Of a stretch of DNA of 52,298 nt, positions 3,779-28,606 are shown one piece after another; positions within the stretch are counted from its first letter, which is position 1, and every line of letters starts with the position of its first letter. The notes under the pieces are model-generated. The model saw only the letters and a list, made by a program, of their open reading frames with translations. It was not told where the DNA came from and made no database searches. A program made the position numbers and the translations under genes. Source of the stretch: an uncultured Gammaproteobacteria bacterium (lineage in GTDB: Bacteria; Pseudomonadota; Gammaproteobacteria; GCA-001735895); contig CALCSG010000018.1 of NCBI GenBank assembly GCA_937894085.1, positions 1-52,298 on the forward strand, read 5' to 3'.

Positions 3779-3810
3779 AACTAGCAAGAAGTAAACTAAC
3801 GGAGAAAAAA

Positions 3811-7266: not shown

Positions 7267-7304
7267 CGCCCAATAAAAAACAATAAATAATAAGGAGATA
7301 CAGC

Positions 7305-7955: not shown

Positions 7956-8039
7956 CGGCGTATTGCAAGTAAAACCCTTTGATACGGGCTGTAAAGTGGC
8001 GTATTTGAAAGTGATAAAAACAACTAATTTGGAATTAGA

Positions 8040-11000: not shown

Positions 11001-11435
11001 TACACCTATCTCGATGACTGGATTCGCAGCCAGAAGCTGCAACAGGCGGAAGGCATAGACGGTGCCGCCGAACGCCTCGCCTCCGCCGAAGGGCTAAAGC
11101 AACGCCTGGAACTGATCCTTGAAGGTGAAGCACCTTACGATATTTTCGTACGCTGGAAACCACTCGAACAACAGCCGATCGGCTGGGACCCTGACTTGAA
11201 TGATGGTGTGCGCCTAAACATCCGCCCCTTCATGACCGTCACTGATGTCGCCCAGAAAGGCGCAGGCATACTCCGCGCCAAACCCAACATCAAATGGACC
11301 AAAGACCGAGGCAAAGACGTTGTGACTGCCCCCTGGTATAAACTTGGATTGGAATATGGAGGTAGTGAAGGGGATCGTATCAATGATCATCACTTATCAC
11401 TTGCAGAAAAGTCAGCAGCATCTGGTCAGGGATAA
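8040..11435 (+). CDS. pglX: BREX adenine-specific DNA methyltransferase PglX (copy 1)
   Basis: A 1,131-residue PglX, the N6-adenine methyltransferase that marks host DNA at a non-palindromic site so BREX can tell self from phage. SAM-binding motif I is DPSCGSGHF (from residue 284) and the catalytic motif IV is NVPYLG (from residue 467), a variant of NPPY/F that also occurs in PglX. The first 240 or so residues and the last 320 or so are nearly identical to those of the next gene, while the methylase core and recognition region in between differ strongly and are more AT-rich. That is a mosaic pattern expected from specificity exchange. It starts 84 nt after the ubiquitin-like gene, and its stop lies 2 nt before the next pglX. 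Confidence 0.92.
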   Translation: MITALARELRSQLEKTVIKARDIAELAAREELQRLAVGDKKSPDYLSEEQRNLRRSLRAHGRQLGDYRKTEGAKNAGEQGIEHLVTEVAYEHWHRMLFARFLAENNLLMYKDGVTALAIQDCFDLAEEETGDSSNGWNYAANYAARMLPQIFRIDSPVFAINLAPNHQKQLEQLLSNLAQETFQASDSLGWVYQFWQAKRKEQINKSEVKIGADELPAVTQLFTEPYMVSFLLENSLGAWWKSKNKKVLDYLTFDYLRLNDDKNPAAGKFQSWPDTLENFRLLDPSCGSGHFLVAAFHMLVPMRMELESMDSLTAIDSVIKDNLHGLELDQRCIEIAVFSLALSAWTFPGAGGYRSLPDFNLACSGQSINGKKTEWQALSNNDIDLSNALERLYELYKDSPTLGSLINPQRILKTDLFNEDWDVISPLLNQILDSDNVEESELGVSAQGIRKASEILTKKYHLVVTNVPYLGRGRQNETLKIFSDLNFPLAKADLATTFASRCIEFCDAGGTVALVTPQNWLHIGPYRHYRHDYLTNYSWNLIAQLGSRAFETITGEIVNVNLTIITKALPNNEDEFFGIDVSTLPNAEVKSNSLMLFELVWCNQKDQLENPDFRISLEKRSNLPLLNGYANSYKGLATGDINMFIGLFWELGLTSNIWNYFQGSVDKSIIYGGRSQIVRWENGHGELFEFVAEKLGKNGVGAWLRGGEAWNKKGVAISQMSGLTCSIYSGDIFDENTAILIPNAESDLLSIFSYCNSEEYRQAVNSIDSSSLKIPNLTLIKVPFETERWLNFSEEHFLFSLPSQFSNDPTQWIFHGHPCGSVIWDEEKKWTAKGPLRVEDTTLQVAVARLLGYQWPTESDSAMELADEQREWVEQCKTLSGYVDDDGIVCLSAVRGEKPAHERLEELLQAAYGTAWSTHVRNQLLEQVSCKNKSLDLWLREKFFEQHCKLFQHRPFIWQLWDGLKDGFSVLVNYHKLDRKNLERLIYTYLDDWIRSQKLQQAEGIDGAAERLASAEGLKQRLELILEGEAPYDIFVRWKPLEQQPIGWDPDLNDGVRLNIRPFMTVTDVAQKGAGILRAKPNIKWTKDRGKDVVTAPWYKLGLEYGGSEGDRINDHHLSLAEKSAASGQG

Positions 11436-11437
11436 GC

Positions 11438-14400
11438 ATGCGAAATACACTCGATAAAACTCTACGCAGCCAACTGGAAAGAACAGTCGTCAAGGCGCGC
11501 GACATCGCCGAACTGGCGGCGCGTGAAGAGCTACAGCGACTCGCAGTGGGCGATAAATCACCGGCAGATTATTTAACCGAACAACAACGCAACCTGCGCA
11601 GAAGCCTGCGCGCCCACGGCCGGCAGCTTGGAGATTATCGAAAACCCGAAGGAGCAAAAAACGCTGGTGAGCAGGGCATCGAACACCTGGTCACCGAAGT
11701 TGCCTACGAACACTGGCACCGCATGTTGTTCGCCCGTTTCCTCGCCGAAAACAACCTGCTCATGTATAAAGACGGCGTAACCGCCCTCGCGATACAGGAT
11801 TGTTTTGACCTGGCCGAAGAAGAAACTGGCGACAGTTTTAACGGCTGGCACTATGCCGCGAACTATGCGGCCAGAATGCTACCACAAATCTTCCGTATCG
11901 ATTCGCCGGTGTTTGCCATTAATCTGGCCCCTAATCACCAGAAACAGTTAGAGCAGTTGCTCTCGAATCTGGCACAGGAAACCTTTCAGGCATCCGATTC
12001 CCTCGGTTGGGTGTATCAATTCTGGCAAGCCAAACGTAAAGAACAGATCAATAAATCCGAAGTGAAGATCGGTGCCGATGAATTGTCCGCCGTTACCCAG
12101 CTGTTTACCGAACCCTATATGGTCAGCTTTCTGCTGGATAATTCTTTAGGCGCCTGGTGGGTAACCAATCATCCTAAAATTGAATGCCCGATTGAATTAA
12201 CCTACCTGCGCACGTTGGAAGACGGCACACCTGCGGCGGGGCGCTTCGAAGGCTGGCCAAAACAGATTAAAGATCTGAAAACTCTCGATCCCTGCTGCGG
12301 TTCCGGCCATTTTCTGGTCGCTGCATTTTTAATGCTGGTGCCGATGCGTATGGCAGTAGAAGGCCTGCCAGCCCCAGAAGCAGTGGACGCAGTGCTGAGT
12401 GATAATATTCATGGCCTGGAACTGGATCAACGCTGTGTAGAGCTGGCGGCCTTCGCTCTGGCCTTAGAAGCCTGGCGCTATCCCGACGCTGGCGGCTATC
12501 GTGCATTACCCGAGTTACACATTGCCTGTTCTGGTTTAGGTATCAATACTAAAAAAGAAGAGTGGCTGGCACTAGCAGGAGACAACTCAAAGCTGTATCA
12601 AGCGTTAGACTCGTTATACACCCAGTTTAAGAATGCACCCATATTAGGTAGTCTTATCAACCCAGATGTGAGTCTCGGTAAAGAGTCTCTTTTTGAATCA
12701 AAGTGGGAAGATGTTGGGCCACTATTAACAAACGCTTTGGCGGGTGAAAGGTCAAGTGAGAAAGATGAGATAGGAGTCGTTGCAAAAGGAATTGCTAAAG
12801 CAGCTAACTTGATGGCTGACGAATATCAGCTTGTTATGACAAATGTTCCTTATCTTGGTAGAGAAGGGCATACACAAGAATTAAGAGATTTTGCTGATAT
12901 GCATTTATCAAAAGCTTCTGGAGATTTGGCGGTATTAATGCTCGAGAGAATCTTTTCCTATGTAGGAAATTCAGGGGATTGCTTCCTTGTTCTTCCGCAG
13001 AATTGGTGGGTAGGTCGAACTTATTCTGATTATCGTGAAGATATAATTCGTAAAAGGCGATGGTTATTAGCTGTTGTGCTTGGAGAGGAGGCATGGGAAA
13101 CATTTGGGAATCGTGGGCCGAACACAGTTCTTGTAGGCATTTCTAGTAGGCCACCTTCTGTTGGTAATAGGTTCTCAGCTATTGACCTTTCAAGTAAGCC
13201 GAATAGACCAATTGTTACTCGGAAAGAAAAGACGGTAGGACTTAAAAAAGAAATTCATGATGGTTTGGGAAAAGTATTTTTGGTTTCGCAAGAAGATCAA
13301 TTAAATAATCCTGATATGAGGATATCATTACACCCTTTAACTACCTCCAAACTCTTAAACCAGTATGTGATCTCAGGAGAAGGTTCTTCTACTGGTGATG
13401 CTGACCACTTCCTGAAATACCATTGGGAGGTAAAATGGGGTGGCTCATGGATTGCGTATATTTCTCCAGATGGAAAATCAAGTCCATGGAGCGGGAGAGA
13501 GTTGTTAATGCTTTGGGAAGATGGAAGCGGAGAATTGGCGAAAAGCTCTCAAGCAAGAATTCAAAATTTAGATTTATGGAAAAAGAAGGGAATATTAGTA
13601 GGAAGAGTTAGAGGCATATCAACAACATTGTTTGATGGTGGCGCCTACTCAAAAGGTGCTGTTCTTATATGCCCAAAAAGAGAGGGAGATCTAGGAAAAA
13701 TTTATAATTTTTTGAAATCTACGCAATATGAAGACCAGGTTCGAGCTCTGGATCCTCGGGTTTCTGCATCAACTAGTGTACTTACAAAAGTAGGTTTTGA
13801 TTATGACTTGGCATCTCAATACGAATACCAGGTGCCAATCAAATATTCCCGAAATCTTACCCAATGGATTTTCCATGGTCATCCAGCTCAAAGCGAAGAA
13901 CCTTTTCACGTTGCGATTGCTCGCTTATTGGGCTACCAGTGGAAAACTGAGTTAGACCCCGATTTGGATCTGGCCAATGAACAACGCGAATGGGTTGAGC
14001 AATGCAAGACTCTTTCCAGTTATGTCGATGACGACGGCATCGTCTGCCTGTCCGCTGTGCGTGGTGAAAAGCCGGCCCATGAACGCCTGGAAGAACTGTT
14101 ACAGGCAGCTTATGGCAGCGAATGGTCTACCAATGTTCGTAATAAGTTACTGGAGCAGGTCGGATGTAAAAACAAAAGCCTGGAGCTGTGGCTGCGTGAA
14201 AATTTCTTTGAACAGCATTGTAAACTGTTCCAGCAACGTCCCTTTATCTGGCAACTCTGGGATGGCCTGAAAGATGGATTTTCGGTGCTGGTTAATTACC
14301 AAAAACTCGATAAGAAAAATCTGGAACGCTTAATCTATACCTACCTGGACGACTGGATTCGCAGCCAGAAGCTGCAACAGGCTGAAGGCATAGACGGCTC

Positions 14401-14749
14401 CACCGAACGCCTCGCCGCCGCCGAAGGCTTAAAGCAACGCCTGGAACTGATCCTCGAAGGTGAAGCCCCTTACGATATTTTCGTACGCTGGAAACCACTA
14501 GAACAGCAGCCGATCGGCTGGAGCCCTGACTTGAATGATGGTGTGCGCCTAAACATCCGCCCCTTCATGACCGTCACCGATGTCGGCCAGAAAGGCGCAG
14601 GCATACTCCGCGCCAAACCCAACATCAAATGGACCAAAGATCGCGGCAAAGACGTTGAGTCTGCCCCCTGGTATGACACCTTTAACGGGGATCGTATAAA
14701 TGAACACCACCTGACATTGGCCGAAAAAAATCTAACGCGAGAGAACTAA
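11438..14749 (+). CDS. pglX: BREX adenine-specific DNA methyltransferase PglX (copy 2)
   Basis: A 1,103-residue second PglX directly after the first (2-nt gap; AGGGA just upstream of ATG). Motif I is DPCCGSGHF (from residue 284) and motif IV is NVPYLG (from residue 469). N- and C-terminal regions match copy 1 almost base for base, but the middle (about residues 245-810) is a different sequence, so the two enzymes probably methylate different sites. Either both are expressed and give double marking, or recombination through the shared ends swaps cores. The C-terminal shared block begins near the motif TQWIFHGHP. Both copies look intact and have the usual length. The stop lies one base before the ATG of the PHP-ATPase gene. 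Confidence 0.92.
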   Translation: MRNTLDKTLRSQLERTVVKARDIAELAAREELQRLAVGDKSPADYLTEQQRNLRRSLRAHGRQLGDYRKPEGAKNAGEQGIEHLVTEVAYEHWHRMLFARFLAENNLLMYKDGVTALAIQDCFDLAEEETGDSFNGWHYAANYAARMLPQIFRIDSPVFAINLAPNHQKQLEQLLSNLAQETFQASDSLGWVYQFWQAKRKEQINKSEVKIGADELSAVTQLFTEPYMVSFLLDNSLGAWWVTNHPKIECPIELTYLRTLEDGTPAAGRFEGWPKQIKDLKTLDPCCGSGHFLVAAFLMLVPMRMAVEGLPAPEAVDAVLSDNIHGLELDQRCVELAAFALALEAWRYPDAGGYRALPELHIACSGLGINTKKEEWLALAGDNSKLYQALDSLYTQFKNAPILGSLINPDVSLGKESLFESKWEDVGPLLTNALAGERSSEKDEIGVVAKGIAKAANLMADEYQLVMTNVPYLGREGHTQELRDFADMHLSKASGDLAVLMLERIFSYVGNSGDCFLVLPQNWWVGRTYSDYREDIIRKRRWLLAVVLGEEAWETFGNRGPNTVLVGISSRPPSVGNRFSAIDLSSKPNRPIVTRKEKTVGLKKEIHDGLGKVFLVSQEDQLNNPDMRISLHPLTTSKLLNQYVISGEGSSTGDADHFLKYHWEVKWGGSWIAYISPDGKSSPWSGRELLMLWEDGSGELAKSSQARIQNLDLWKKKGILVGRVRGISTTLFDGGAYSKGAVLICPKREGDLGKIYNFLKSTQYEDQVRALDPRVSASTSVLTKVGFDYDLASQYEYQVPIKYSRNLTQWIFHGHPAQSEEPFHVAIARLLGYQWKTELDPDLDLANEQREWVEQCKTLSSYVDDDGIVCLSAVRGEKPAHERLEELLQAAYGSEWSTNVRNKLLEQVGCKNKSLELWLRENFFEQHCKLFQQRPFIWQLWDGLKDGFSVLVNYQKLDKKNLERLIYTYLDDWIRSQKLQQAEGIDGSTERLAAAEGLKQRLELILEGEAPYDIFVRWKPLEQQPIGWSPDLNDGVRLNIRPFMTVTDVGQKGAGILRAKPNIKWTKDRGKDVESAPWYDTFNGDRINEHHLTLAEKNLTREN

Positions 14750-14750
14750 A

Positions 14751-17621
14751 ATGACTGGCTTCTACAAAGGAATGCGATGGCTGAAGTGTGACTTACAGGT
14801 ACAAACTCCTGAAGATGAAAGGCATTGGCAAGATGATGATCTCAAATTGCTAAACCCACGAAGACCGAAAAATAATGGTCAACCGGATGAAGGCGATATT
14901 CAGGAAAAAGCACGCATATTTTTACGTCGCTGTCATGCGCTTGGACTAGATCTAATCGGGGTAACAGATCATAATTTTTCAGCACGAACTGATCCCAGGG
15001 ATTGGTTTGTTGTTCATCTGGCCGAACAGAATAAAACAGTAGCTAAAGAATTTGATCGCCAGCCATTAGTTATAATGCCAGGATTTGAAGTAGATATTGG
15101 ATACCATGTTCTTTGTCTGTTCAACTCAGCAAAGAAGCAAAAACACTTTGAAGAATGTAATCGAATTCTTACGAAATTAGGTTTGGCTGAAAATGCCCGT
15201 TTCGATCAGACTGGCCCCAAACAACTCAGGCATAATGATCAGCGTATCTCTCTCAAAAAGCTGATTGAGATTGTCCAAGGGGAGCATGGTGGAATCGTAA
15301 TAGCAGCGCATGCTGATCAGAAAAGTGGTCTGTTTTCTGAAGCATCCAATAAGGATGATTATGCCAATCATGAACTCTATTGTGTGGAATTGACTCAAAA
15401 TCCTCCGGCACAAAAGCACCAAGATATCCTTTCGGCCAAAAATATTGCCTGGAGGAGAAACTATTCACACCCCGCCTGGATTATGTCTTCTGATGCAAAA
15501 TCAATTCGCACTGATGAAGATGGTAAGCCAAAAGCAAATAGCCTTGGATACCGATATACATGGATTAAGATGTCTGAACCATCCGTAGAGTCTCTTCGTC
15601 AGGCATTTCTCGATCATGATTCTCGGATACGTTTACCACTTGATATATCAACAGATAAGCCACCAGGCGACCTAATTAAACAGTCCGTGATCCGTTCCAT
15701 ATCAATTAAGGATGCTGTATTCCTTGCGGATCAAGATGCACAGTTTTCTCCTAACATGAATTGTGTTATCGGTGGTCGGGGTAGTGGTAAATCTACGTTG
15801 CTTGAGTATCTTCGCGTGATGCTGAGGAAAGATAAGAATAAAGATATTGATGAGGGAACGCTGGAACGAATCAAGCGTGTAAAAAATACTTTGAATAATC
15901 AGGGAGCTGCTACGACACTTGAAGTCTGCTGGGTAAGTGCTGATGGTGTTGAAGATAGAATAGTCTGGGAAGCTGGGCGACCAGTTGTTAAAGATCTGGA
16001 TTTGGAAGATCCGGACACTTATTTTGAAAACCTTCAAGTGAGTTTCTATAGTCAGCAACAGCTTAATCGGTTAACCGACTCTAGAACCGATGAACGTGGT
16101 GTCCGCCAGGCTGAGCGACTTTTGGAGTTAGTGGATGGTTTTGCCAAGGATGAGTTGGATGACCTGGAACAGCAAGGAGATGCGATCAAACGTCAAATTA
16201 ATCATGCCTTTTCGATCCAGCGAGCCATAGCTGAACAAGAGACGATTTTAAAGAGACTAAAACAAGAACGACAGGAACTCGAGCGCCAGTGGAAAGCGCA
16301 AAGCGACATTCAGGGGCCTGCCCAAAGGCATCAGGCACTTAAGGGAGAATCTCGTTATCTTCAACGGGTCAAAGGTGTAAAGGGGCAGCAGTTTTCTGAT
16401 GTCGCAGATTTGGCTGGTGAAGTTGCAAACTCTCATGTTCCATTTTCCGTAGAACAAGCGCCACATGGTGAGTGGTTTGCTGAAATCGATGCGAAAGTAA
16501 AAACAGCAAAAGACGAGCTAGCTGCGGAAATTCGTAAAGTCACGGACACATTTAACCAAACCATCTCTGGATTGATTGATGATAATCCTGGCTGGGCTTT
16601 GATCAAAAATGAGCTTGAACAAGCTGATGATGAATTTGAAAAAGCATGTGCCGATAAAGGACTGAGCCTGGATGATGTGGGGCATCTCCAGGAAGTCAAT
16701 CAAGCACGAAGCCGAAAAGATGAAGAAATTGAGGGCGTTGACCTAGCTATAGGAAAACTCAGTGAATCTGCTGGTAATCCAGAAATTTTAATCGCTGACC
16801 TTCAAGAGGTATGGCGTCAGCAATTTGCAAAGCGAGGTGAAGCGGTAATAAAAGCTAACGATCTTGCTGTTCTCGATGGTGAGGTGCATCGCTTTATTGA
16901 GGTGTCTGCTGCTTACCAACAGGACTCAAAAACATTCAGTCAACACTGGCTTATTTTCGGCCCCGATGACAAGCGGACTCGACTTGGAAGAGGTTGGGAT
17001 GAAATCGGTGATAAGTTGTATAAAAAGTTCTCAGATTATGATGGCGATTCACCTTCACCTTGGCAGTATCTAAAAGATAGGCTTGATTCTGATACACAGT
17101 CAGCAGGGATGGAGTTTACTGATTTATTTAGTGAGTTATATCAGCATATAAATGCTAATGGCGAAAAATGGGAAAAACTGCAGATTTCAAGAGTAGAAGA
17201 TGCTGTCGATATGAAGCTTTTTCGGCCGGATGGTACGGTTGCCGGTAGTATCGCTAAGGGTAGTTTATCTGATGGGCAGCGTAATACGGCAGCACTGGCA
17301 TTGTTATTGGCACAAGATGGTGGCCCCTTGGTAATAGATCAACCAGAAGATGAGCTGGATTCTAACTTTGTGTTTCGCGAACTCATACCAATGCTTCGAA
17401 AAGTGAAGAATAAGCGCCAGCTTATTATGGCTACCCATAATGCCAACCTGCCGGTAAATGGTGACGCTGAACTTGTTTATGCCTTTGAAGCAAAAAATGG
17501 CAGAGGAGAAGTGCTCGCGCAAGGTGGGCTAGACCAAGGTGATGCTACCAAAGCGGTGCTTGATATCATGGAAGGTACAGAAGAAGCTTTCCGCCGTAGG
17601 CGAGAAAAATACCATTTTTGA
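14751..17621 (+). CDS. TrlF-like PHP-domain/SMC-like ATPase
   Basis: A 956-residue fusion. The N-terminal PHP-type metal-dependent hydrolase (about 1-290) shows DLQVQTP (14-20), VTDHN (71-75), PGFEVD and AAHADQKSG. The ATPase is of the SMC/ABC type: Walker A GGRGSGKST (341-349), a coiled-coil-rich middle (about 450-700), signature SLSDGQRN (about 838-845), Walker B PLVIDQPEDELDS (D863) and a switch His in MATHNAN. This architecture matches the TrlF family, often found in defence islands. PHP domains hydrolyse phosphoesters, so a nuclease coupled to DNA-sensing ATPase activity is plausible. It starts one base after the pglX2 stop and therefore belongs to the BREX transcript. Family assignment is good; the biochemical role is inferred. 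Confidence 0.85.
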   Translation: MTGFYKGMRWLKCDLQVQTPEDERHWQDDDLKLLNPRRPKNNGQPDEGDIQEKARIFLRRCHALGLDLIGVTDHNFSARTDPRDWFVVHLAEQNKTVAKEFDRQPLVIMPGFEVDIGYHVLCLFNSAKKQKHFEECNRILTKLGLAENARFDQTGPKQLRHNDQRISLKKLIEIVQGEHGGIVIAAHADQKSGLFSEASNKDDYANHELYCVELTQNPPAQKHQDILSAKNIAWRRNYSHPAWIMSSDAKSIRTDEDGKPKANSLGYRYTWIKMSEPSVESLRQAFLDHDSRIRLPLDISTDKPPGDLIKQSVIRSISIKDAVFLADQDAQFSPNMNCVIGGRGSGKSTLLEYLRVMLRKDKNKDIDEGTLERIKRVKNTLNNQGAATTLEVCWVSADGVEDRIVWEAGRPVVKDLDLEDPDTYFENLQVSFYSQQQLNRLTDSRTDERGVRQAERLLELVDGFAKDELDDLEQQGDAIKRQINHAFSIQRAIAEQETILKRLKQERQELERQWKAQSDIQGPAQRHQALKGESRYLQRVKGVKGQQFSDVADLAGEVANSHVPFSVEQAPHGEWFAEIDAKVKTAKDELAAEIRKVTDTFNQTISGLIDDNPGWALIKNELEQADDEFEKACADKGLSLDDVGHLQEVNQARSRKDEEIEGVDLAIGKLSESAGNPEILIADLQEVWRQQFAKRGEAVIKANDLAVLDGEVHRFIEVSAAYQQDSKTFSQHWLIFGPDDKRTRLGRGWDEIGDKLYKKFSDYDGDSPSPWQYLKDRLDSDTQSAGMEFTDLFSELYQHINANGEKWEKLQISRVEDAVDMKLFRPDGTVAGSIAKGSLSDGQRNTAALALLLAQDGGPLVIDQPEDELDSNFVFRELIPMLRKVKNKRQLIMATHNANLPVNGDAELVYAFEAKNGRGEVLAQGGLDQGDATKAVLDIMEGTEEAFRRRREKYHF

Positions 17622-17692
17622 TTGTGGCAATGTTTATTTCCTTAGTCGTATTGGAATTAGCATAATAATAAATATTAAGGAGAATACAGTAT

Positions 17693-19381
17693 ATGGCAAA
17701 AAAAATTAGTGGCGCAGAGTATCAACTGGCAAAAATATTCAGTTCAGAATTTGATTATGTAATTCCTTCCTATCAGCGTCCCTATGCCTGGACTGTTGAT
17801 CAAACATCGGAATTGTTTGACGATCTGTATGATTTCTATCGTACCGAGCTGGATGAGGAATATTTTCTTGGAAGTATTGTGCTGATTAAAGAAGAAGGTA
17901 TTCCATACTCTCAAGTTATCGATGGTCAGCAGCGTTTGACTACACTGACAATTTTACTGGCGGCAATGACACACCTTTTTTCCGATGAGATGAAATCGGA
18001 TTTTAACAACTATATCCGTGAACCTGGCCGGGTATCGCAGGGGTTGAAGCCAAAACCAAGGCTTGCCCTGCGAGACTTAGATAGGGATTTTTTTGCTAAA
18101 TATGTACAGGGTTTATTATTTGATGAATTGTTTGCTTTTGACAGTACATCATTAGGTAACGAATCACAGAGAAATATTCAGACGAACAGTCGCTACCTCC
18201 TTGAAAAACTTAAGGAAGTGTTTGACGGTGATAACAGTAAATTGGTTGATTTCGGTATATTTGTGGTACAGCGTTGCTCCCTGGTTGCCGTATCAACTTC
18301 TACCCAACATTCAGCATTTCGCATTTTTTCAGTCATGAATAGCCGTGGGTTAGATTTACAGCCTACTGATATTCTGAAAGCTGAAGTTATTGGCCAGTTA
18401 GGTAAAGACAAACAAGCTGAATACAACGAGCGCTGGGAAGACATGGAAGTTGAATTAGGCAGAAGTGGATTCAACGACCTTTTCTCTTATGTGCGAATGA
18501 TTTATGCCAAAGAGAAAGCCAAGCGTGCACTTTTAGAGGAGTTTAAATCTCAAGTTATTTCAAAAATCAGCACTCCAGTAGCTCTTATAGAAGACGTTCT
18601 TGAACCCTATGCCGATGCGTTGGCCATTGTAAAACATGCTAATTACGAAGCATCTTCTAATGCGCAGGATGTGAACAGCTATTTAAAGTGGCTTAATCGA
18701 ATTGATAACTCTGACTGGATTCCGCCTGCGATTTTATTCCTCGCCAAACATAAGCAGGAGCCTGATTATGTTTTGTGGTTTTTCCATCGGTTGGAGCGTC
18801 TGGCTGCTTGTATGCATGTGTGTGCTCGTAACATAAATGAGCGTATAGAGAGGTATTCCAGGCTGATAAATGGACTTGATAAGCCACATTCTATGAAGTC
18901 ACCAGTGGCTGAGGTTGAGCTAAGTGATGCAGAAAAAATGGCAATGTTCCAAGCATTGAATGGAAGTGTGTATGAGTTAACTGCTAGGAGAAGAAACTAC
19001 ATTATATTACGGCTGGATGCTTTTATGTCAGATGGCGCTGCTGTGTATGACCCTTCTGTTTTGACCATAGAGCATGTTTTACCTCAGACGGTTAATTCAG
19101 AAAGTGAATGGTCGAAAATTTGGCCTATTGAAGAACAACGGCTTGTATGGACGCACCGTATTGCTAATTTGGTGCCTCTTAATTTTAGACGCAACGTTAG
19201 TGCCTCTAATTATGATTTTGAACGCAAAAAAATAGCTTATTTTGGGGGTAAGAAACAGGTTTCATCCTATGTGCTTACAACCCAGGTATTAAATACACCT
19301 GCATGGACCGTAGAGTATGTAGAGAAACGTCGGCTAGAGCTGATGAGCGTGTTTGCCGATAAGTGGAATCTGACTATATAG
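17693..19381 (+). CDS. DUF262/DUF1524 protein (GmrSD-like type IV restriction nuclease)
   Basis: A 562-residue protein. The N-terminal DUF262 (ParB-like NTPase) domain has IPSYQRPYAW (24-33), FLGSIVL and DGQQRLTTL (77-85), the signature of GmrS-type nucleotide-binding domains. The C-terminal DUF1524 His-Me nuclease domain has IEHVLPQ (E460, H461) and RIANLVPLN with a following Asn. GmrSD-type enzymes (including the BREX-associated BrxU) cleave phage DNA with modified cytosines, so this gene complements BREX, which is blind to phages that evade by base modification. A 71-nt gap precedes it with AAGGAG ten bases before the ATG. Related DUF262/DUF1524 enzymes can instead act on phosphorothioate DNA (SspE-like), which I cannot exclude. 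Confidence 0.85.
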   Translation: MAKKISGAEYQLAKIFSSEFDYVIPSYQRPYAWTVDQTSELFDDLYDFYRTELDEEYFLGSIVLIKEEGIPYSQVIDGQQRLTTLTILLAAMTHLFSDEMKSDFNNYIREPGRVSQGLKPKPRLALRDLDRDFFAKYVQGLLFDELFAFDSTSLGNESQRNIQTNSRYLLEKLKEVFDGDNSKLVDFGIFVVQRCSLVAVSTSTQHSAFRIFSVMNSRGLDLQPTDILKAEVIGQLGKDKQAEYNERWEDMEVELGRSGFNDLFSYVRMIYAKEKAKRALLEEFKSQVISKISTPVALIEDVLEPYADALAIVKHANYEASSNAQDVNSYLKWLNRIDNSDWIPPAILFLAKHKQEPDYVLWFFHRLERLAACMHVCARNINERIERYSRLINGLDKPHSMKSPVAEVELSDAEKMAMFQALNGSVYELTARRRNYIILRLDAFMSDGAAVYDPSVLTIEHVLPQTVNSESEWSKIWPIEEQRLVWTHRIANLVPLNFRRNVSASNYDFERKKIAYFGGKKQVSSYVLTTQVLNTPAWTVEYVEKRRLELMSVFADKWNLTI

Positions 19382-19417
19382 AACCAGATCCCATATTAGC
19401 AGAGTACTAACAAAGTA

Positions 19418-20452
19418 TTGCACGATAACTTATCAAATGTTATTGTGCAAAAAATTGTTATCGAGGGCTACGTGGATCAATTGCAGAAGCATTTAGAGCA
19501 CTACCTGTCTGAAGTGACGGGGCTGAAGGTTATGGCTAATCTTCAGAATAGCGCAGACTTACCCTATTTTTTTACCAGGCTCTATACACTGTATCAGCTG
19601 GACATCGGTAGCACCTCATTCACTGCTGTTTTTCTTAAGCAGGAAGATGAATTTAAACCCGCTCAATTTATTAAACACCTGCAGCAGGTTCAATGGGTTG
19701 AAATGGATGAACTCTGCGTGGTGGCGCAATCCCTGCCGACTTATGTACGTAAGCGCCTGATTGAAAAAGGCATTCCTTTTGTCATACCTAATGTTCAAAT
19801 GTACCTGCCCGCGATGGGCATGGAGTGGAGAGCCAGGGCTGGACGGAAAAAACCAGTTACGGTTGAGCGCTTTAGCCCGGCAACACAGGTCGTATTGATT
19901 TACTGGTTGCTCGGGAGAATTGAGGGTTCGGTGACGCCGTTAGAGCTATCGAAGCAACTCTGGTATAGCACAATGACGATGAGTCGAGCGCTAAATGAAC
20001 TGGAATCGTCAAAAATTGCCAGAGTGGAGCGAGTGGGTCGTGAACGTTTTGTTACCTTTTCAGAAAATCGTAAAGTAACCTGGCAGGAAGTGTATCCGCG
20101 TCTGCGTACACCCGTTATTCAGCTTGTACGTGTTACCAGGCATGCGCTATCTGCAGAGAACGTTTTACCGGCTGGTCTCACCGCGCTATCTTACCGCTCC
20201 ATGTTGAGTGAGCCTGCTTACCCTGAATATGCGCTTAGCCGCGATGCCTGGAAGGCTATGGAAAAAGCGGGGATAGAAAAGATCCCGTTGGAAGAGGAGG
20301 GGACCTGCGTGTTACAGGTTTGGTGCTATGACCCCAAAATTTTAGCAGTGGATGGCCAGGTTGATCCTTTTTCTCTGTTTCTTAGTCTGCAGGATGAAAA
20401 CGATGAGCGTATTGAAATGGCACTGGATGAAATGATGGCGCCGTATCTATGA
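19418..20452 (+). CDS. AbiEi-like winged-helix regulator (putative antitoxin)
   Basis: A protein of up to 344 residues. A helix-turn-helix region near residues 150-215 (VTPLELSKQLWYSTMTMSRA followed by a basic wing) has the look of a MarR-like winged helix. The gene overlaps the AbiEii-like nucleotidyltransferase by 4 nt (ATGA), the arrangement of type IV AbiE toxin-antitoxin pairs, where AbiEi is the DNA-binding autorepressor. The start is uncertain. The frame opens at a TTG (19418) without a clear Shine-Dalgarno; a GTG at 19472 has GAGGG four bases upstream and may be the true start. The N-terminal 120 residues are unlike anything I can name. The antitoxin role is inferred from the pair. 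Confidence 0.65.
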   Translation: MHDNLSNVIVQKIVIEGYVDQLQKHLEHYLSEVTGLKVMANLQNSADLPYFFTRLYTLYQLDIGSTSFTAVFLKQEDEFKPAQFIKHLQQVQWVEMDELCVVAQSLPTYVRKRLIEKGIPFVIPNVQMYLPAMGMEWRARAGRKKPVTVERFSPATQVVLIYWLLGRIEGSVTPLELSKQLWYSTMTMSRALNELESSKIARVERVGRERFVTFSENRKVTWQEVYPRLRTPVIQLVRVTRHALSAENVLPAGLTALSYRSMLSEPAYPEYALSRDAWKAMEKAGIEKIPLEEEGTCVLQVWCYDPKILAVDGQVDPFSLFLSLQDENDERIEMALDEMMAPYL

Positions 20453-21222
20453 TCAGAGGCCTGGATAAATTTAGAGCGCATTTTGCGGATTTTACTCACT
20501 GCTATGTATTGATTGGAGGTGCCGCTTCTGATTTGGTCATGAATGATGTCGGAGTTGAGTTTCGTGCCACCAAAGATCTGGACATTGTGCTGTGTATCGA
20601 AGCGATGGATACAGCCTTTGCCGAGGCATTCTGGAGCTTTGTAAAAGCGGGTGGTTACAAGCACCAGCAGCGCAGCACAGACAGGAAGATTTTTTATCGA
20701 TTCCATGAGCCGGAGGATAAGCATTATCCGGTTATGCTGGAGTTATTCTCCCGAACCCCGGATATGATGGTATTAGGAGATGATAGTCATTTAACCCCCA
20801 TACCTGTTGCAGAAGATGTGTCTAGTCTGTCTGCCATTTTACTGAATAAGGATTACTACCACTTTATCCATCAACACAAACTGGAAATCGATAATGTAGC
20901 AGTCGTCACCCCCGCCTGTTTAATTCCATTGAAGGCAAAGGCCTGGCTGGATTTGAGTATGCGCAGAGAGGCTGGCGAGAAGGTCGATTCCAGGGTTATA
21001 AAAAAACATAAAAACGATATTTTTCGATTATTTCAGGTGATCGCTCCAGACTTAAGGGTTGATCTACCCGCTGCCGTTTCACAAGACATGCAGCAGTTTC
21101 TGGATGAGATTTCAGAAGATGCAGATTTGTCATTAAAAGATTTTGGCTTAGCAGGGTTGGGAGTGCGGGATGTTGTCGAAGCACTCAGACTGAACTATCG
21201 ACTTCAGGGAAAAGGGACATAG
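20449..21222 (+). CDS. AbiEii/AbiGii-like nucleotidyltransferase (putative toxin)
   Basis: A 257-residue protein of the DNA polymerase beta-type nucleotidyltransferase fold. The active-site pattern is IGGAASDLVM followed by RATKDLDIVL (the D-x-D pair). Further motifs usual for AbiEii proteins are a conserved Lys in LIPLKAKAWLDL and KKHKNDIFRL in the C-terminal half. AbiEii-type toxins transfer nucleotides, for example to tRNA ends, and stop growth of infected cells. It overlaps the upstream regulator by 4 nt and precedes pglZ by 7 nt, so the pair is fully embedded in the BREX operon and may act as a fallback that kills or stalls the cell if BREX fails. Family assignment is good; target unknown. 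Confidence 0.78.
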   Translation: MIRGLDKFRAHFADFTHCYVLIGGAASDLVMNDVGVEFRATKDLDIVLCIEAMDTAFAEAFWSFVKAGGYKHQQRSTDRKIFYRFHEPEDKHYPVMLELFSRTPDMMVLGDDSHLTPIPVAEDVSSLSAILLNKDYYHFIHQHKLEIDNVAVVTPACLIPLKAKAWLDLSMRREAGEKVDSRVIKKHKNDIFRLFQVIAPDLRVDLPAAVSQDMQQFLDEISEDADLSLKDFGLAGLGVRDVVEALRLNYRLQGKGT

Positions 21223-21229
21223 AGCAATA

Positions 21230-23560
21230 ATGAGTGAAGTAAAAACAGTACAGCGTGCCCTTATTCAGGCAATTCGGCAGTCGAGTGCTTTCAATCCGAA
21301 TACCCAGCTTGCACCGGCCTGCATACTATGGACGGATAAGGAGCGACAGTGGGAAGCGGTCATTCCTGCATTACAGCAGGCTCTACCCGAGCTTTTCGTT
21401 TTAGGAAACTATGCTCCCGAAACCCGAACAGGCCCTGCGATCTGGCTGAAATGCGTGGTAGCGAGTACGCTAGAATCGGTGCAAGTACCAGACAATCTTA
21501 CGCCGATTATTTATATGCCGGGCATTTCCAGAACTGAACTTAGGGCCATTGAACATTGCTCTGATGCCATCAAGCCATTAGCCGAGCTGCAATATCGGGG
21601 TCTCATATGGAGTCAGCATAATGGCAAGGACTGGACGGCCAACGCCTATTTAACCTCTGCAACCGGCGGTTTGGGACTGGATGTTGCGAAAGATAAAGCC
21701 ACACAAGTCGCCTTATTAATGGCGTTACCTGAACTGTTGAATAGTAATTCGCATTCTTTGGAGAATAAACGGTTAGAGGCGAGTGATTTTAACCAGTTAA
21801 TCATAAGCGATCCCATTCGTGATTTACTGACCTGGATGAATTCACCCAAAGATATCGCTGGCAGCTGGAACGGCGGTCGTTGGCAGGCCTTGTGTAATGA
21901 AGCCCGCAGTCAATTTGGTCTGGATATTGAAAAGGATGGTGAGTTTGCAGCGGCAGAGAAGTTATGTGCCAGCAAAGGTGCCTGGGTAAATGTCTGGCAG
22001 AGATACTGTGATAGTCCGGATCTATATCCAGCACTGATTACGCTGCTGGAACGTGTCCCCTTGCCGGATTTGTTTTCCGATCCCGCTACCTATCCGCAAG
22101 GCAATGCACAGGACGAAGATACCTTATTTATTGCATTAAAAGCATTGAAAAATGAAGGCTCGAGTTCGGCTCGTGAAGAAATTTTGACCCTGGATAAAAC
22201 GCATGGAGCACGACGCAATAGCCTGTGGGCGAAACTTGGAAAAGCGCCATGGGCAAAACTGTTAAAGCCTTTGGCGCAGGTGGCTGAGCGTACTAAAAAT
22301 GGACCAGGCGGCTTGACCCCACAGGAGTTAGGTGAGCGATACAGTACTGATGGTTGGTTAACGGATGCAGCTGCGATCCAGGCTATAGCCTTATGTGACA
22401 ATAAGCAGCAGCTGAATGTTATCGAAGACGTTCTGGCCACGATCTATACCCCCTGGCTTGCCGATCTGAATGAAAGGTTTCAAAAGCAGGTGCGCGAAAA
22501 AGGCTATCCAGGGTGCCATGATGACAGTGTTGCGGAATCAGTAGCCGCGTACAAAGCCAGCGGTGAGGTGGTCTTTTTTGTCGATGGTCTGAGGCTCGAT
22601 GTAGCACATCAGCTAATCGCCTTATTCAATGATAAAGGTCTTAAACCTGTATTGAGTACGCAATGGTCTGCATTGCCTTCGGTAACGGCTACCGCGAAGG
22701 CGGCAGTGAGTCCAATTTATGCCCTGTTAACCGGCCTGGATAGTGATAAAGATTTTGAACCCAGTGTCATCGATAATGGCTCTTTGACTCATGAGCGCTT
22801 TAAAAAGCAGCTAGGTTTGTTGGGCTGGCAAACTTTAGCCGATAACGAAACGGGTGATTCAACGGGCAAAGCCTGGGTCGTCTGTGGTGATATCGATAAG
22901 GAAGGCCATAAGAGTGAGTTAAAACTGCCTCGCCGGATACCCATGATTTTAGACAGTATCGTCGAACGTGTGATTGAACTGCAGCAAGCGGGCTGGCAGA
23001 AAATTAGAATAGTGACCGATCATGGCTGGTTATTGGTGCCAGGTAAAATGCCAAAATCCATGCTACCAGGCCAGGCCTCCGAGAGTCGTTGGGGGCGTTG
23101 TGCACAATTAAAGCAAAATGTTCACATCGATGGATTAACCCTCGGCTGGCACTGGAACCCGAATATTCCTATTCATTACCCACACGGTATCCATTCGTTT
23201 ATTGCGGGTAGAACCTATGGGCACGGTGGAGTGAGTTTGCAGGAATGTCTGGTGCCAGTAATTAGCATAGAAGGGGAAGTAAAAACCTTAGCGCAAGCCT
23301 CTATTACTTCAGTGAAGTGGATTGGGTTAAATTGCAAAGTTGAAGTCAGTAGTGAAGCAAAAAACATCTTTACCGACTTGCGCACTAAATTAGCGGATAG
23401 CGATTCATCTTTGGTGAATGCCAAAGAATTAAAGGCTGGAAAGGCGAGCTTGATGGTATTAGATGATGATAATGAAGGCGTGTCGGCGATTGTGGTTGTG
23501 TACGATGCTGAGGGTAATGTGCTGGCTAAACAGGCTACAACCATTGGAGGTGATGAATAA
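21230..23560 (+). CDS. pglZ: BREX phosphatase-superfamily protein PglZ
   Basis: A 776-residue PglZ. The PglZ domain belongs to the alkaline-phosphatase superfamily. A metal-binding segment VFFVDGLRLDV (from residue 448, with D452) and the second metal site TDHGW (596-600) are both visible, followed by HGGVSLQE near the end. PglZ is a core BREX component with metal-dependent phosphodiesterase or nuclease activity and works with PglX and BrxB/BrxC. The N-terminal 400 residues are the usual PglZ N-terminal region. It begins 7 nt after the AbiEii-like gene and overlaps brxL by one base, so it is cotranscribed with both. The length matches type 1 systems. Confidence 0.92.
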   Translation: MSEVKTVQRALIQAIRQSSAFNPNTQLAPACILWTDKERQWEAVIPALQQALPELFVLGNYAPETRTGPAIWLKCVVASTLESVQVPDNLTPIIYMPGISRTELRAIEHCSDAIKPLAELQYRGLIWSQHNGKDWTANAYLTSATGGLGLDVAKDKATQVALLMALPELLNSNSHSLENKRLEASDFNQLIISDPIRDLLTWMNSPKDIAGSWNGGRWQALCNEARSQFGLDIEKDGEFAAAEKLCASKGAWVNVWQRYCDSPDLYPALITLLERVPLPDLFSDPATYPQGNAQDEDTLFIALKALKNEGSSSAREEILTLDKTHGARRNSLWAKLGKAPWAKLLKPLAQVAERTKNGPGGLTPQELGERYSTDGWLTDAAAIQAIALCDNKQQLNVIEDVLATIYTPWLADLNERFQKQVREKGYPGCHDDSVAESVAAYKASGEVVFFVDGLRLDVAHQLIALFNDKGLKPVLSTQWSALPSVTATAKAAVSPIYALLTGLDSDKDFEPSVIDNGSLTHERFKKQLGLLGWQTLADNETGDSTGKAWVVCGDIDKEGHKSELKLPRRIPMILDSIVERVIELQQAGWQKIRIVTDHGWLLVPGKMPKSMLPGQASESRWGRCAQLKQNVHIDGLTLGWHWNPNIPIHYPHGIHSFIAGRTYGHGGVSLQECLVPVISIEGEVKTLAQASITSVKWIGLNCKVEVSSEAKNIFTDLRTKLADSDSSLVNAKELKAGKASLMVLDDDNEGVSAIVVVYDAEGNVLAKQATTIGGDE

Positions 23561-25611
23561 TGGAACTTGATCAGTTAGATAAAAAGTCGGCAGAGAGTTT
23601 TGAAGGGTATGTCGTCAGGAAAGACCTGGTACGAACTTTTAGTCAGCAGTTTCCAGTACCAACGTATGTGGTTGAATTCTTGCTGGGCCGCTATTGCGCA
23701 ACTACCGATGAAAACGAAATTAAAGAAGGTCTGGAAATTGTTCAGCGCCAGCTTTCCTCTCGTACCGTAAAGGCCGGGGAAGAAGAACTGTTCAAGGCCA
23801 AAGCCTATAAGGAGGGCAGTGTAAAGTTAATCGATATGGTCAGTGTCCGTTTTAGTGCAAAAGATAATGGATACCTGGTCACACTGCCAAGCCTTCGCCT
23901 GAACAATGTGCGTATTGCCGATAAAATAGTGGATGAAAATGACCGCCTGTTAACCGGCGGATTTTACGCTGAGATCACCCTGGAATACGACAAATTTATC
24001 GCTGAAGAAAAATCAGGGAATCCATTCGGCGTATTTGCACTACGGCCTATTCAGTTATCCAAGCGCGATGTTCTCGATGTTTTAGCATCGGCCAGAGAAC
24101 AGTTCAGTACAGAGGAATGGATTAACTTACTGCTGCGTTCCATAGGACTGGAACCTGACAGCCTGGATAAATCGGCAAAAAACGCCATGCTGCTAAGGAT
24201 GGTGCCTTTTGTAGAGCGCAACTACAACATGGTTGAGTTAGGACCAAGAGGCACTGGTAAGAGTCATTTATACCAGCAGGTATCGCCCTATGCGCATTTG
24301 ATATCCGGTGGCAAGGCCACTGTCGCCAAAATGTTTGTGAACAATGCAAATGGTCAGCGCGGCCTGGTTTGTCAGTATGACGTGGTTTGTTTTGATGAGG
24401 TGAGCGGCATTTCTTTTGACTCTAAAGACGGCGTCAACATTATGAAAGGCTATATGGAGTCCGGGGAATTTAGTCGCGGCAAAGAGAGTATTCGTGGCGA
24501 TGGCTCGCTGGTCTTTGTCGGCAACTTCGAAGTCGATGTTGAGCATCAGCAAAGAATAGGCCATCTCTTCGGGCCGTTGCCGGAAGAGATGCGAAACGAT
24601 ACCGCGTGGATGGATCGTATACATTCCTATCTACCAGGCTGGAATGTACCAAAAATGAATAAGTCTTTTTTAACCGACCATTTTGGACTGGTGAGTGATT
24701 TCTTATCGGAATGCTTTAGTCACTTAAGGAATCAGAGTCGTATTAGCAGTTTGCAGAGTCGAGTTTATTTTGGAGGCGCGCTCAGTGGTCGCGATACCAA
24801 TGCGGTTAATAAAACAGTATCTGGGCTTTTAAAGCTGTTATACCCCAGCATGGATTCGGTGGTTTCCGATGAGGATCTTGAATGGGCTGTTCGCCAGGCA
24901 CTTGAAGTGCGCCGGAGGGTTAAAGAACAACAGAAACGTATCGGCTCAGCTGAATTCAGGAATACGCATTTCAGTTATATTCTGGGCGATGAAGGCGTCG
25001 AGCAGTTTGTATCCACGCCGGAGCTTCGAGCGGATAATTCGATTGGAAGTGATCCGTTAGAGCCTGGACAGATATGGGCTATTAGTGAAGGAGGTACGGA
25101 TGCTGATGATAATGCCGGGCTTTACCGGATTGAAGTCAACGATGGACCTGGTAGCGGCGTAAAAATTCTGAATAACCCGAGCCCTGCTGCCTTTAGGGAA
25201 TCAGTACGCTTTGCGGAACAGAATCTTTATTCAAGATCTGCCCAGTTAGTCGGAGATAGAGACCCGCGCGCACATGAATTTACGATTCAGCTAAGGGCGT
25301 TTGATGCTTCCAGGAAAGGTGCAAAACTGGGCATCCCGGCATTAGTCGCTATCTGTAGCAGTATGCTGAAAAAACCGATCAAAGGGGGATTGATTTTAGT
25401 CGGTGAAATAAATTTGGGTGGATCAATAGAACCGGTTTTAAATGCGGTTAATGTTACTGAGTTAGCCGTAGAAAAGGGCGCTCAGGCTATATTATTACCC
25501 GTGAGCTGCAGGCGACAGTTATTTGATCTGTCTGACGAAATGGCAACGAAAGTGGATGTTCAGTTTTACGCCGATGCCAGGGATGCGATGTTGAAGGCCC
25601 TGGTGGAATAG
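23560..25611 (+). CDS. brxL: BREX Lon-like AAA+ protein BrxL
   Basis: A 683-residue BrxL. The N-terminal domain (about 1-200) is BrxL-specific. The AAA+ part carries Walker A GPRGTGKS (228-235) and Walker B VCFDEV (D279, E280). The C-terminal Lon-like fold (about 560-683) includes GLILVGEINLGGSIEPV and VEKGAQAILLPV. The loop where Lon proteases have their catalytic serine reads RKGAKLGIPAL here, with no Ser, in keeping with BrxL acting on DNA rather than as a protease. BrxL forms DNA-threading assemblies and is the last core gene of type 1 BREX. GGAGG nine bases upstream supports the ATG, which overlaps the pglZ stop by one base. Confidence 0.92.
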   Translation: MELDQLDKKSAESFEGYVVRKDLVRTFSQQFPVPTYVVEFLLGRYCATTDENEIKEGLEIVQRQLSSRTVKAGEEELFKAKAYKEGSVKLIDMVSVRFSAKDNGYLVTLPSLRLNNVRIADKIVDENDRLLTGGFYAEITLEYDKFIAEEKSGNPFGVFALRPIQLSKRDVLDVLASAREQFSTEEWINLLLRSIGLEPDSLDKSAKNAMLLRMVPFVERNYNMVELGPRGTGKSHLYQQVSPYAHLISGGKATVAKMFVNNANGQRGLVCQYDVVCFDEVSGISFDSKDGVNIMKGYMESGEFSRGKESIRGDGSLVFVGNFEVDVEHQQRIGHLFGPLPEEMRNDTAWMDRIHSYLPGWNVPKMNKSFLTDHFGLVSDFLSECFSHLRNQSRISSLQSRVYFGGALSGRDTNAVNKTVSGLLKLLYPSMDSVVSDEDLEWAVRQALEVRRRVKEQQKRIGSAEFRNTHFSYILGDEGVEQFVSTPELRADNSIGSDPLEPGQIWAISEGGTDADDNAGLYRIEVNDGPGSGVKILNNPSPAAFRESVRFAEQNLYSRSAQLVGDRDPRAHEFTIQLRAFDASRKGAKLGIPALVAICSSMLKKPIKGGLILVGEINLGGSIEPVLNAVNVTELAVEKGAQAILLPVSCRRQLFDLSDEMATKVDVQFYADARDAMLKALVE

Positions 25612-25627
25612 ACGAGGCTTGAAGGTT

Positions 25628-26927: not shown

Positions 26928-27524
26928 ATGAAAATGACTGAAAACTATAACCCCGTATTCATATCATTAGGTGGTTCAGGTGGAAATATTTTGGAAGATT
27001 TCGATACGGATTTATTTCCGTTAGATCATCAACTGCACATCAATACTGATCGTAATAGTCTGAGGCAGCGGAAAGGAACCCAGTTTATAATTGGAGAAAA
27101 ATGTATAAAAGGGCTCTCCTGTTCAAGGTTGCCGGCTTTAGGTAAAAAGGCTATCGATGAATCACTTATTACTATTTTGACAAAGTTAATCAATAAGACA
27201 GATGTATTCATCATAGCTGGCCTTGGTGGTGGCACAGGAAGTGCGGCTCCGCATTTAGCTAAGCTACTTATTCAGAGCGGGAAAAAAGTTCACCTGATTT
27301 TAAGTGTTTTAGGCCTGGACAGTGAAAGCAAATTAACTCAACAAAATGTTGAGAATGCGATTTCTGATGCGAATGAAATAGAACCAAAATTAGCCCGTCT
27401 AATTATCATGAAACAAGACTGGAAGAGGTTTGATAAGAGTGCAATTTTTAATGATTGCTTGTTTCAATTTCATCAGGAGATAGCAAAGGAAGTAGAAATC
27501 CAGAAAAGCCAATCACAAATATAA
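26928..27524 (+). CDS. miniature FtsZ/tubulin-like GTPase domain protein
   Basis: A 198-residue protein made only of the nucleotide-binding half of the FtsZ/tubulin fold. The N-terminal glycine loop is ISLGGSGGNILEDF (compare GVGGGGGNAV in FtsZ), then HINTDRNSL resembles the FtsZ FxAxNTD strand, and the tubulin signature is AGLGGGTGSAAPHLAKLL. The protein stops before the T7 catalytic loop and the C-terminal activation domain, so it cannot form a normal FtsZ protofilament or complete the usual inter-subunit GTPase site. It may bind nucleotide as a sensor. It is followed after 22 nt by an Mrr-like nuclease gene, a strong hint that the pair forms a two-component system. A second, full-length FtsZ paralogue is at 46.8-48.0 kb. 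Confidence 0.75.
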   Translation: MKMTENYNPVFISLGGSGGNILEDFDTDLFPLDHQLHINTDRNSLRQRKGTQFIIGEKCIKGLSCSRLPALGKKAIDESLITILTKLINKTDVFIIAGLGGGTGSAAPHLAKLLIQSGKKVHLILSVLGLDSESKLTQQNVENAISDANEIEPKLARLIIMKQDWKRFDKSAIFNDCLFQFHQEIAKEVEIQKSQSQI

Positions 27525-27546
27525 ACCTTTATAAGGACCGTTTAAT

Positions 27547-28557
27547 ATGCTGGATAAAAAAATAGTTTTAACAAGAAGCTCAAGAAAACTTATCTCAGAA
27601 GATACAATTGGCTATGGCTGGAGTAATGTAATTTTTTCCGACTACCCCGATATAAAGGTTTTGTTTGAACAGGGTTTTAAAGGCAAAGAAAAGTCAATCG
27701 GACGGAAAGCTAAACAGATTAAACTTTTCTATAATTTGAAAAAAGATGACCTGGTTGTACTTCCGTTTTCCGGTTCTATTGCAATAGCCGTTGTACAAGG
27801 AAATAAGTCATATGAAAAAGGAATAAAGCACGCTGAAAACCGTATTGCGGTTGATTATTTAAAAGACAAGAATGGCAAAATGTTTATACCAAGAGCCTGT
27901 CTATCAACAGCCTTACAGGCTAGATTGAGGTTACGTACGACTCTGGCTGACTTGGGGTCTTTTACTGAAGAAATAGAAGGGCATGTTAGTGCGATAAAAA
28001 ATGGTGAGATTTTAACCTGGGATGAAGGGATGGAAAAAAAGGCAGCTAAGGCAGAGGATAGCTTTAAAAAGAGTTTACTTGCAAGATTAAAAAAAGGTAA
28101 CGAAATAAGTTTGTCAGCAGGTGGTCATGGACTCGAGGAACTTGTTAAAGAACTTTATGAAATAGAAGGTTATGAAGCAAAAATTCAGGCTAAAAATAAA
28201 AGTAGTGGTGTTGAGGATGTAGATATAATTGCCACCAGAGAAAATGACCTGTCACCTATAAAAGAGAAACTTTTTATACAGGTGAAGCACCACCGGGGCA
28301 GCACAAAAGGACATGGGGTTAATCAGTTATCGGCTTATAATTTGGATCTGGAATGTTTCGAATATTCCAACTGTTGTTTTAAGATTTTGATCACTACAGC
28401 AAAATTCGAAGAAGCCGCCAAACAAAAAGCGATTGCTAAAAACATTGAAACCATTGATGGAGAGAAGTTAGTAGATTTGATTTATGACAAATTAGATAAA
28501 TTAAGTGTAAAAACTCGGTTATCTTTAGGTATCAGTAGCATTCCATTATTAATTTAA
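27547..28557 (+). CDS. Mrr-like PD-(D/E)xK restriction endonuclease
   Basis: A 336-residue protein. The C-terminal part (about 190-315) is an Mrr-type nuclease domain. GGHGLEELVKELYEIEGYEA opens it, then VEDVDIIAT (D226) and LFIQVKHH (Q245, K247) give the D...QxK active site typical of Mrr_cat. The N-terminal 180 residues include a beta-rich part (DDLVVLPFSGSIAIAVVQG) that resembles small DNA-reading or barrel modules, but I cannot name it. AAGGA sits nine bases before ATG. It follows the mini FtsZ-like gene by 22 nt and ends before a strong terminator, so the two form a compact unit. Mrr-type enzymes cut methylated or foreign DNA; that target is inferred. Confidence 0.8.
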   Translation: MLDKKIVLTRSSRKLISEDTIGYGWSNVIFSDYPDIKVLFEQGFKGKEKSIGRKAKQIKLFYNLKKDDLVVLPFSGSIAIAVVQGNKSYEKGIKHAENRIAVDYLKDKNGKMFIPRACLSTALQARLRLRTTLADLGSFTEEIEGHVSAIKNGEILTWDEGMEKKAAKAEDSFKKSLLARLKKGNEISLSAGGHGLEELVKELYEIEGYEAKIQAKNKSSGVEDVDIIATRENDLSPIKEKLFIQVKHHRGSTKGHGVNQLSAYNLDLECFEYSNCCFKILITTAKFEEAAKQKAIAKNIETIDGEKLVDLIYDKLDKLSVKTRLSLGISSIPLLI

Positions 28558-28569
28558 GCTCTGGCTTAA

Positions 28570-28606
28570 ACAGGTATTAACTCCGAAGTTAACCTGTATA
28601 TTTTCC
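28570..28606 (+). terminator. intrinsic terminator after the Mrr-like gene
   Basis: An imperfect hairpin of about 11 bp (ACAGGT then TTAACT, loop CCGA, AGTTAA then CCTGT, with a two-base bulge) is followed by ATATTTTCC. It lies 13 nt past the stop and probably ends the long BREX-to-Mrr transcript. The following 265 nt up to the PP2C start hold no clear gene; a 36-codon GTG frame near 28.66 kb has no convincing ribosome-binding site. Confidence 0.6.

Follow-up and report, generated by a model that had tools for sequence, protein, structure and literature searches.

The 52,298-nucleotide stretch of DNA analysed here (the window) encodes, just downstream of a type I BREX locus, a 198-residue FtsZ-like protein followed by a 336-residue Mrr-type nuclease on the same strand (Table 1). 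The FtsZ-like protein spans the GTPase domain of FtsZ and ends after helix H7, and we refer to it as a half-FtsZ. Only 22 nt separate the two open reading frames, in keeping with the operon-like arrangement originally predicted for them, and this short gap contains a likely ribosome-binding site of the nuclease gene, 9 nt ahead of its ATG. A terminator common to both genes had also been proposed and is plausible only: a hairpin does follow the nuclease gene, and the 61-nt stretch that contains it folds at −13.1 kcal/mol (z −2.3), but the T run after the hairpin is weak and a consensus terminator scan did not list it. A promoter scan returned no signal above chance at the pair, no Rfam family matches near it, and no tRNA lies within the window. 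The G+C content is 0.37 in the half-FtsZ gene and 0.36 in the nuclease gene, against 0.47 in brxL, a drop that fits inserted genes.

PADLOC and Pfam scans place the pair in the anticipated defence-island setting. The BREX locus comprises BrxB, BrxC in two pieces, two PglX proteins, a Ppl-like ATPase, a weak PglZ and BrxL; together with a HEPN-like gene it flanks the pair upstream, a PP2C gene lies downstream, and the island also holds a T5orf172 gene. BrxC (3811-7266, +) is split by one in-frame stop (VY*VQE, near 4651-4653); the BREX locus may be inactive or the stop may be a sequencing error. The PglX proteins are both full-length, are encoded in tandem (8040-14749, +) and match the same PADLOC model. 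Directly after BrxL, a 223-residue protein (25619-26290, +) carries a motif characteristic of HEPN RNases, RNQLIH, and matches CARF_HEPN weakly, and between this HEPN-like gene and that of the half-FtsZ lies a 139-codon open reading frame (26423-26842, +) whose product has no recognisable relatives.

Table 1. Coordinates and assignment of features at the half-FtsZ/nuclease pair
Feature	Coordinates	Strand	Description and basis
Type I BREX locus	2455..25611	+	just upstream of the pair; PADLOC and Pfam scans
Half-FtsZ protein, 198 aa	26928..27524	+	FtsZ GTPase domain up to helix H7; PF00091, AF2 model, motif table
T1 loop SLGGSGGN, residues 13-20	26964..26987	+	alignment to canonical FtsZ
T4 phosphate loop AGLGGGTGS, residues 97-105	27216..27242	+	alignment to canonical FtsZ
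C-terminal helix equivalent to FtsZ H7, residues 172-197	27441..27518	+	DSSP on the model; protein ends after the helix
AAGGA	27533..27537	+	likely ribosome-binding site of the nuclease gene; sequence
Nuclease, 336 aa	27547..28557	+	EVE/YTH-like N-terminal domain and Mrr-type PD-(D/E)XK domain; PADLOC PDC-S02 family
Putative modified-base reader domain, residues 1-155	27547..28011	+	fold-level match only
PD-(D/E)XK catalytic domain, residues 195-314	28129..28488	+	alignment, structure matches
Hairpin 3' of the nuclease gene	28570..28597	+	possible weak terminator of the pair; RNA fold z −2.3

A half-FtsZ that stops after helix H7

Profile searches relate the window's half-FtsZ to PF00091 (Tubulin; E 5.6e-12, 46.8 bits over a cut-off of 33 bits), to TIGR00065 ftsZ as a partial match (E 3e-14) and to solved FtsZ proteins in the PDB (E 9.5e-12). 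An AF2 model built from a three-row alignment (pLDDT 77.7, pTM 0.79) contains the whole Rossmann core with the H7 helix as its last element, the latter at lower confidence (pLDDT about 50-63), and matches FtsZ with a Z-score of 23.9 across 193 residues. Alignment to canonical FtsZ reveals that T1 (GGSGGN), T2 (NTD) and T4 (GGGTGS) are retained, including the glycine signature that had first drawn attention to the protein, and that T3 is altered and the PF.FE motif of T5, the ND of T6 and the H7 contacts are eroded. Judging from these motifs, the phosphate site is likely intact, and guanine specificity is doubtful because the guanine-contacting residues in T5, T6 and H7 are those that have eroded. 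The host's own FtsZ, to which the half-FtsZ is about 25% identical, is encoded by a full-length open frame of 393 aa on another contig.

The original prediction held that the protein stops before the T7 loop and the second FtsZ domain, and that this is not a truncation of a full-length FtsZ. The motif alignment ends at H7 and ahead of T7, a Pfam scan yields no match to FtsZ_C (PF12327), and a six-frame search for the FtsZ C-terminal domain around the window's gene and the other half-FtsZ genes described below found none, with positive controls recovered. FtsZ cleaves GTP across subunits through T7, and since this loop is absent, the window's half-FtsZ is on its own incapable of cross-subunit hydrolysis. 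We reject a fresh truncation of ftsZ, as no FtsZ_C remnant lies downstream and half-FtsZ homologues of similar length are found in other genomes. The protein is a genuine and complete FtsZ GTPase domain that has neither T7 nor a C-terminal domain.

The downstream nuclease and its relatives

The Mrr-like identity of the second protein stands, with a PF04471 (Mrr_cat) match at E 5.3e-16 and conserved catalytic residues, as E197, D224, D226 and Q245-V-K-H-H are invariant in ten aligned family members. In structure comparisons the catalytic domain is closest to AF1548 (Z 12.3), MspJI (Z 11.4) and AspBHI, within a range of Z 10.7-12.3, and the N-terminal domain to VcaM4I (Z 8.7), MJECL36 (8.4), PH1033 (8.3) and YTHDF2 (8.0), chains that include EVE-like proteins of archaea and YTH readers of m6A. 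The EVE Pfam profile does not match the protein in a Pfam scan, and the EVE/YTH-like fold of its N-terminus is no more than suggestive of a modified-base reader. The PADLOC family PDC-S02 covers the nuclease at nearly full length (E 8.8e-22, residues 45-327) and is classed there as a single-gene defence candidate (PDC-S), and EVE-PD(D/E)XK proteins have been described as putative modification-dependent restriction enzymes (PMC7641849). On account of its stand-alone PDC-S02 family and EVE/YTH-like N-terminal fold, the nuclease probably acts by itself as a modification-dependent (type IV) restriction enzyme.

Relatives of the nuclease were located at 16 loci, on plasmids of Acinetobacter and Pseudomonas as well as in Marinomonas, halomonads, Methylobacter and others, and none has an FtsZ-like neighbour within the flanks examined. 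Conservation of the half-FtsZ/Mrr pair across genomes, as envisaged at the outset, is therefore contradicted, and the nuclease can evidently work without a half-FtsZ. Neither was a recurrent close partner of any other kind found in the 12 of these 16 loci that were examined in detail.

Half-FtsZ proteins in other genomes and their neighbours

Eight stand-alone half-FtsZ proteins of 192-222 aa were found in seven Pseudomonadota genomes, together with one apparently membrane-anchored form. A Pfam scan identified a second short FtsZ-like gene in the window's own genome (203 aa, on contig C423), the full match list of a scan across 120 Pseudomonadota genomes gave two more (196 and 192 aa), and a profile built from these proteins added others of 199, 197, 200 and 222 aa. 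The additional form, G644 (L090:6320-7288, +; 323 aa), fuses a hydrophobic N-terminal segment, which probably spans the membrane, to an FtsZ GTPase domain that likewise ends at H7. Stand-alone members thus occur in at least seven of the 398 sampled genomes (about 2%, own genome included, with genomes that gave extra matches only partly inspected). Two half-FtsZ proteins left out of the profile match it with E 2e-45 and 2e-41, compared with 1e-33 at best for canonical FtsZ. The T1 and T4 glycine-rich loops are recognisable in all nine proteins and a canonical T7 in none, C423 retaining an eroded NIEYER. For two related members we obtained dN 0.13 and dS 0.67, and the resulting dN/dS of about 0.19 indicates, for this one pair, that the family is maintained. 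Six half-FtsZ proteins form a supported clade (96/88); those of the window, G112 and G644 fall outside on long branches, which leaves a single or multiple origin undecided. The G112 family is represented by one genome only, and C423, which is 8 kb long and comes from a draft genome, is a possible contaminant.

Beyond these genomes, half-FtsZ queries scanned as single proteins or as alignment patterns recovered no relatives from viral and genome contigs, and tblastn of the window's protein against plasmids and phages gave no match. Other half-FtsZ queries matched mostly full-length or unannotated ordinary FtsZ in plasmid tblastn searches, and a scan with a mixed FtsZ alignment returned only an ordinary chromosomal FtsZ adjoining a prophage. 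In MT835527.1, an unannotated record of a phage from human faeces, positions 51730-52371 weakly match the C423 half-FtsZ (24.5%, E 1e-3).

The expectation that short FtsZ-like genes recur next to the same nuclease was borne out in part: a half-FtsZ gene followed by some nuclease-like gene does recur, whereas the combination with Mrr does not. A nuclease-like gene lies directly downstream on the same strand in three of the eight stand-alone cases, which are all three from the window's class, and thus in two of the seven loci other than the window, where the partners resemble GIY-YIG proteins by weak matches. On C423, a WYL regulator gene precedes the half-FtsZ gene and a GIY-YIG-like gene follows at about 88 nt; in G112 the half-FtsZ gene overlaps a GIY-YIG-like gene by 4 nt, adjoining that of a type I restriction subunit. 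Both GIY-YIG calls are sub-threshold profile matches (E 0.025 and 0.088, respectively), a group I intron endonuclease model aligns to the same part of the G112 partner (E 0.27), and there is barely any similarity between the two GIY-YIG-like proteins. Against a background that we estimate at about one in ten for a nuclease gene following a defence-island gene, three in eight is only mildly surprising.

Members from the other class adjoin other genes. In G342, an AAA ATPase gene lies 39 nt upstream of the half-FtsZ gene and a MazE/PIN-like pair downstream, the PIN-like call being our own judgement from the sequence; this ATPase and the one encoded at 49225-51378 of the window share 33% identity across about 720 aligned positions. 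The G193 gene is bordered by divergent UmuD/UmuC-like genes on one side and a HIRAN gene on the other, that of G306 by an rRNA-methylase-like gene upstream and a cyclic-phosphate receiver gene downstream, and those of G259 and G362 mostly by unknown genes.

Full-length FtsZ-like cousins were also encountered. The window itself encodes, at 46781-51378 (−), an AAA ATPase, a WYL regulator and a full-length FtsZ paralogue that is 65% identical to the host FtsZ in the alignment and has an N-terminal Tat-like motif, RRNFMKLL. A genus mate (L089:3219-9386) carries the same trio, with a DUF2779 gene between those for AAA and WYL and an FtsZ that starts MKRRNFLKLL. In four Pseudoalteromonas replicons (L054, L055, L058 and L059) a WYL regulator gene lies directly upstream of that for a non-canonical FtsZ of about 365 aa, in surroundings that vary by strain and include McrBC, HNH, reverse transcriptase, nuclease-domain or integrase genes, and in G555 (L157:3852-6850, +) the gene for a 565-residue FtsZ-like protein has a DUF6161 gene and transposase-like genes as neighbours. 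A non-canonical FtsZ adjoins WYL in the window (46781-49185), the genus mate, the four Pseudoalteromonas replicons and, convergently, G555, and two of the four WYL genes in the window's own genome adjoin FtsZ-family genes. These arrangements support a broader connection, apparently undescribed, of FtsZ-like proteins with defence-type regulators.

Possible roles and comparison with known systems

We tentatively propose, at a little less than an even chance, that the half-FtsZ accompanies interchangeable defence effectors as an accessory or sensor protein that binds a nucleotide and does not hydrolyse it. The pair would then constitute a small accessory operon of the BREX-anchored defence island, in which the Mrr domain of the nuclease would cut incoming DNA whose modified bases its EVE/YTH-like domain probably recognises. 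The half-FtsZ would probably bind nucleotide via its retained T1 and T4 phosphate loops and, lacking T7 and the second domain, would neither hydrolyse it nor extend a normal protofilament; most likely it would tune whichever effector is encoded alongside, in three loci a nuclease, which it might contact and control. For this accessory or sensor role we counted the complete Rossmann fold up to H7, the T1 and T4 loops of all nine proteins, the recurrence of the family and its dN/dS, the operon-like 22-nt spacing, the three nuclease-like neighbours and the EVE-PD(D/E)XK architecture; against it, the absence of an FtsZ-like neighbour from all 16 loci with nuclease relatives, the weak GIY-YIG calls and the neighbours in the other class, as well as the long branch outside the clade, the altered T3, the eroded T5, T6 and H7 and the possible C423 contamination. 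A more ambitious proposal, that half-FtsZ proteins are new nucleotide switches in anti-phage defence that gate interchangeable nucleases (Mrr, GIY-YIG) and are WYL-controlled in some loci, appears unlikely to us; a stand-alone tubulin-fold GTPase domain would here sense a nucleotide signal with neither hydrolysis nor polymer.

The solitary occurrence of the nuclease at 16 loci and its PADLOC status as a single-gene candidate (PDC-S) lend some weight to the view that the two genes are independent passengers, a self-sufficient type IV nuclease beside an unrelated half-FtsZ with at most a common transcript, particularly since defence islands pack unrelated genes tightly, here BREX, HEPN-like, PP2C and T5orf172. 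Such chance proximity is harder to reconcile with a 22-nt gap that carries the nuclease's own ribosome-binding site and with two further half-FtsZ genes that have a nuclease-like gene directly downstream, one of them overlapping, and we judge it a serious, if somewhat unlikely, explanation. Functionless decay of a duplicated ftsZ is, in our assessment, very improbable: the degenerate T3, T5, T6 and H7 residues, the long branch and the presence of half-FtsZ in only about 2% of sampled genomes would suit such a remnant, yet the open frame is intact, no FtsZ_C relic lies downstream, homologues of nearly equal length exist in other families and the related pair has a dN/dS of about 0.19.

With the GTP-side half kept and the T7 side missing, the protein could also end, rather than extend, a filament. 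It might act as a decoy or cap by imitating the top face of FtsZ or that of a phage tubulin, for instance PhuZ, to which three half-FtsZ proteins have their best PHROG match (E 7e-5 to 0.005). Decoy effector roles in conflict systems have been proposed for inactive enzymes, including copies of division proteins, and for rare FtsZ-superfamily members (PMC7159879). We consider this mimicry doubtful, given the altered top-face loops T3 and T5 and the roughly 25% identity to host FtsZ, and find it equally doubtful that the protein blocks division or protects FtsZ during infection by attaching to filament ends or to phage FtsZ inhibitors; both leave the nuclease partners unexplained. The tubulin superfamily is known as filaments, and a maintained nucleotide-binding half in defence islands, beside apparent nucleases, would, if true, mean that the fold can serve as a switch or bait instead of a polymer.

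The window's half-FtsZ shares with FtsZ the GTPase-domain fold, the T1 and T4 loops and H7, and differs from it in lacking T7 and the C-terminal domain and in lying outside any division-gene cluster. A published account of a half-FtsZ family was not found in the open-access literature, absence from which is not proof. The nearest described proteins are FtsZl1 and FtsZl2, non-canonical members of the FtsZ superfamily (Makarova and Koonin 2010, PMC2875224), and the FtsZ/tubulin domains of conflict systems (PMC7159879), neither of which, as far as the relevant passages of the latter go, is a stand-alone half. In FtsZl1, no elements beyond H5 could be recognised, a coiled-coil C-terminal region is present and the partners are vWA proteins (PMC2875224), whereas the window protein has just 198 aa. 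We reject FtsZl1 membership on this length and on the PF13809 (Tubulin_2) match, which reaches only E 0.036 over 17 residues; the protein is nearer true FtsZ than Tubulin_2. FtsZl2 retains T7 and about 300 extra residues (PMC2875224), and membership in it is rejected because T7 and the C-terminal region are absent here. FtsZ-superfamily domains also occur in NTP-dependent conflict systems, for which decoy or assembly roles have been proposed (Kaur et al. 2020, PMC7159879); the systems in the FtsZ/tubulin passages of that work are MoxR-vWA or GTPase-centred, and a stand-alone half-FtsZ with a nuclease goes unmentioned in them. The nuclease, finally, combines the same EVE-like fold, assigned here by fold, and PD-(D/E)XK domain as the EVE-PD(D/E)XK enzymes (PMC7641849) and PDC-S02, and in comparison with these the only unusual feature of the locus is the adjoining half-FtsZ gene.
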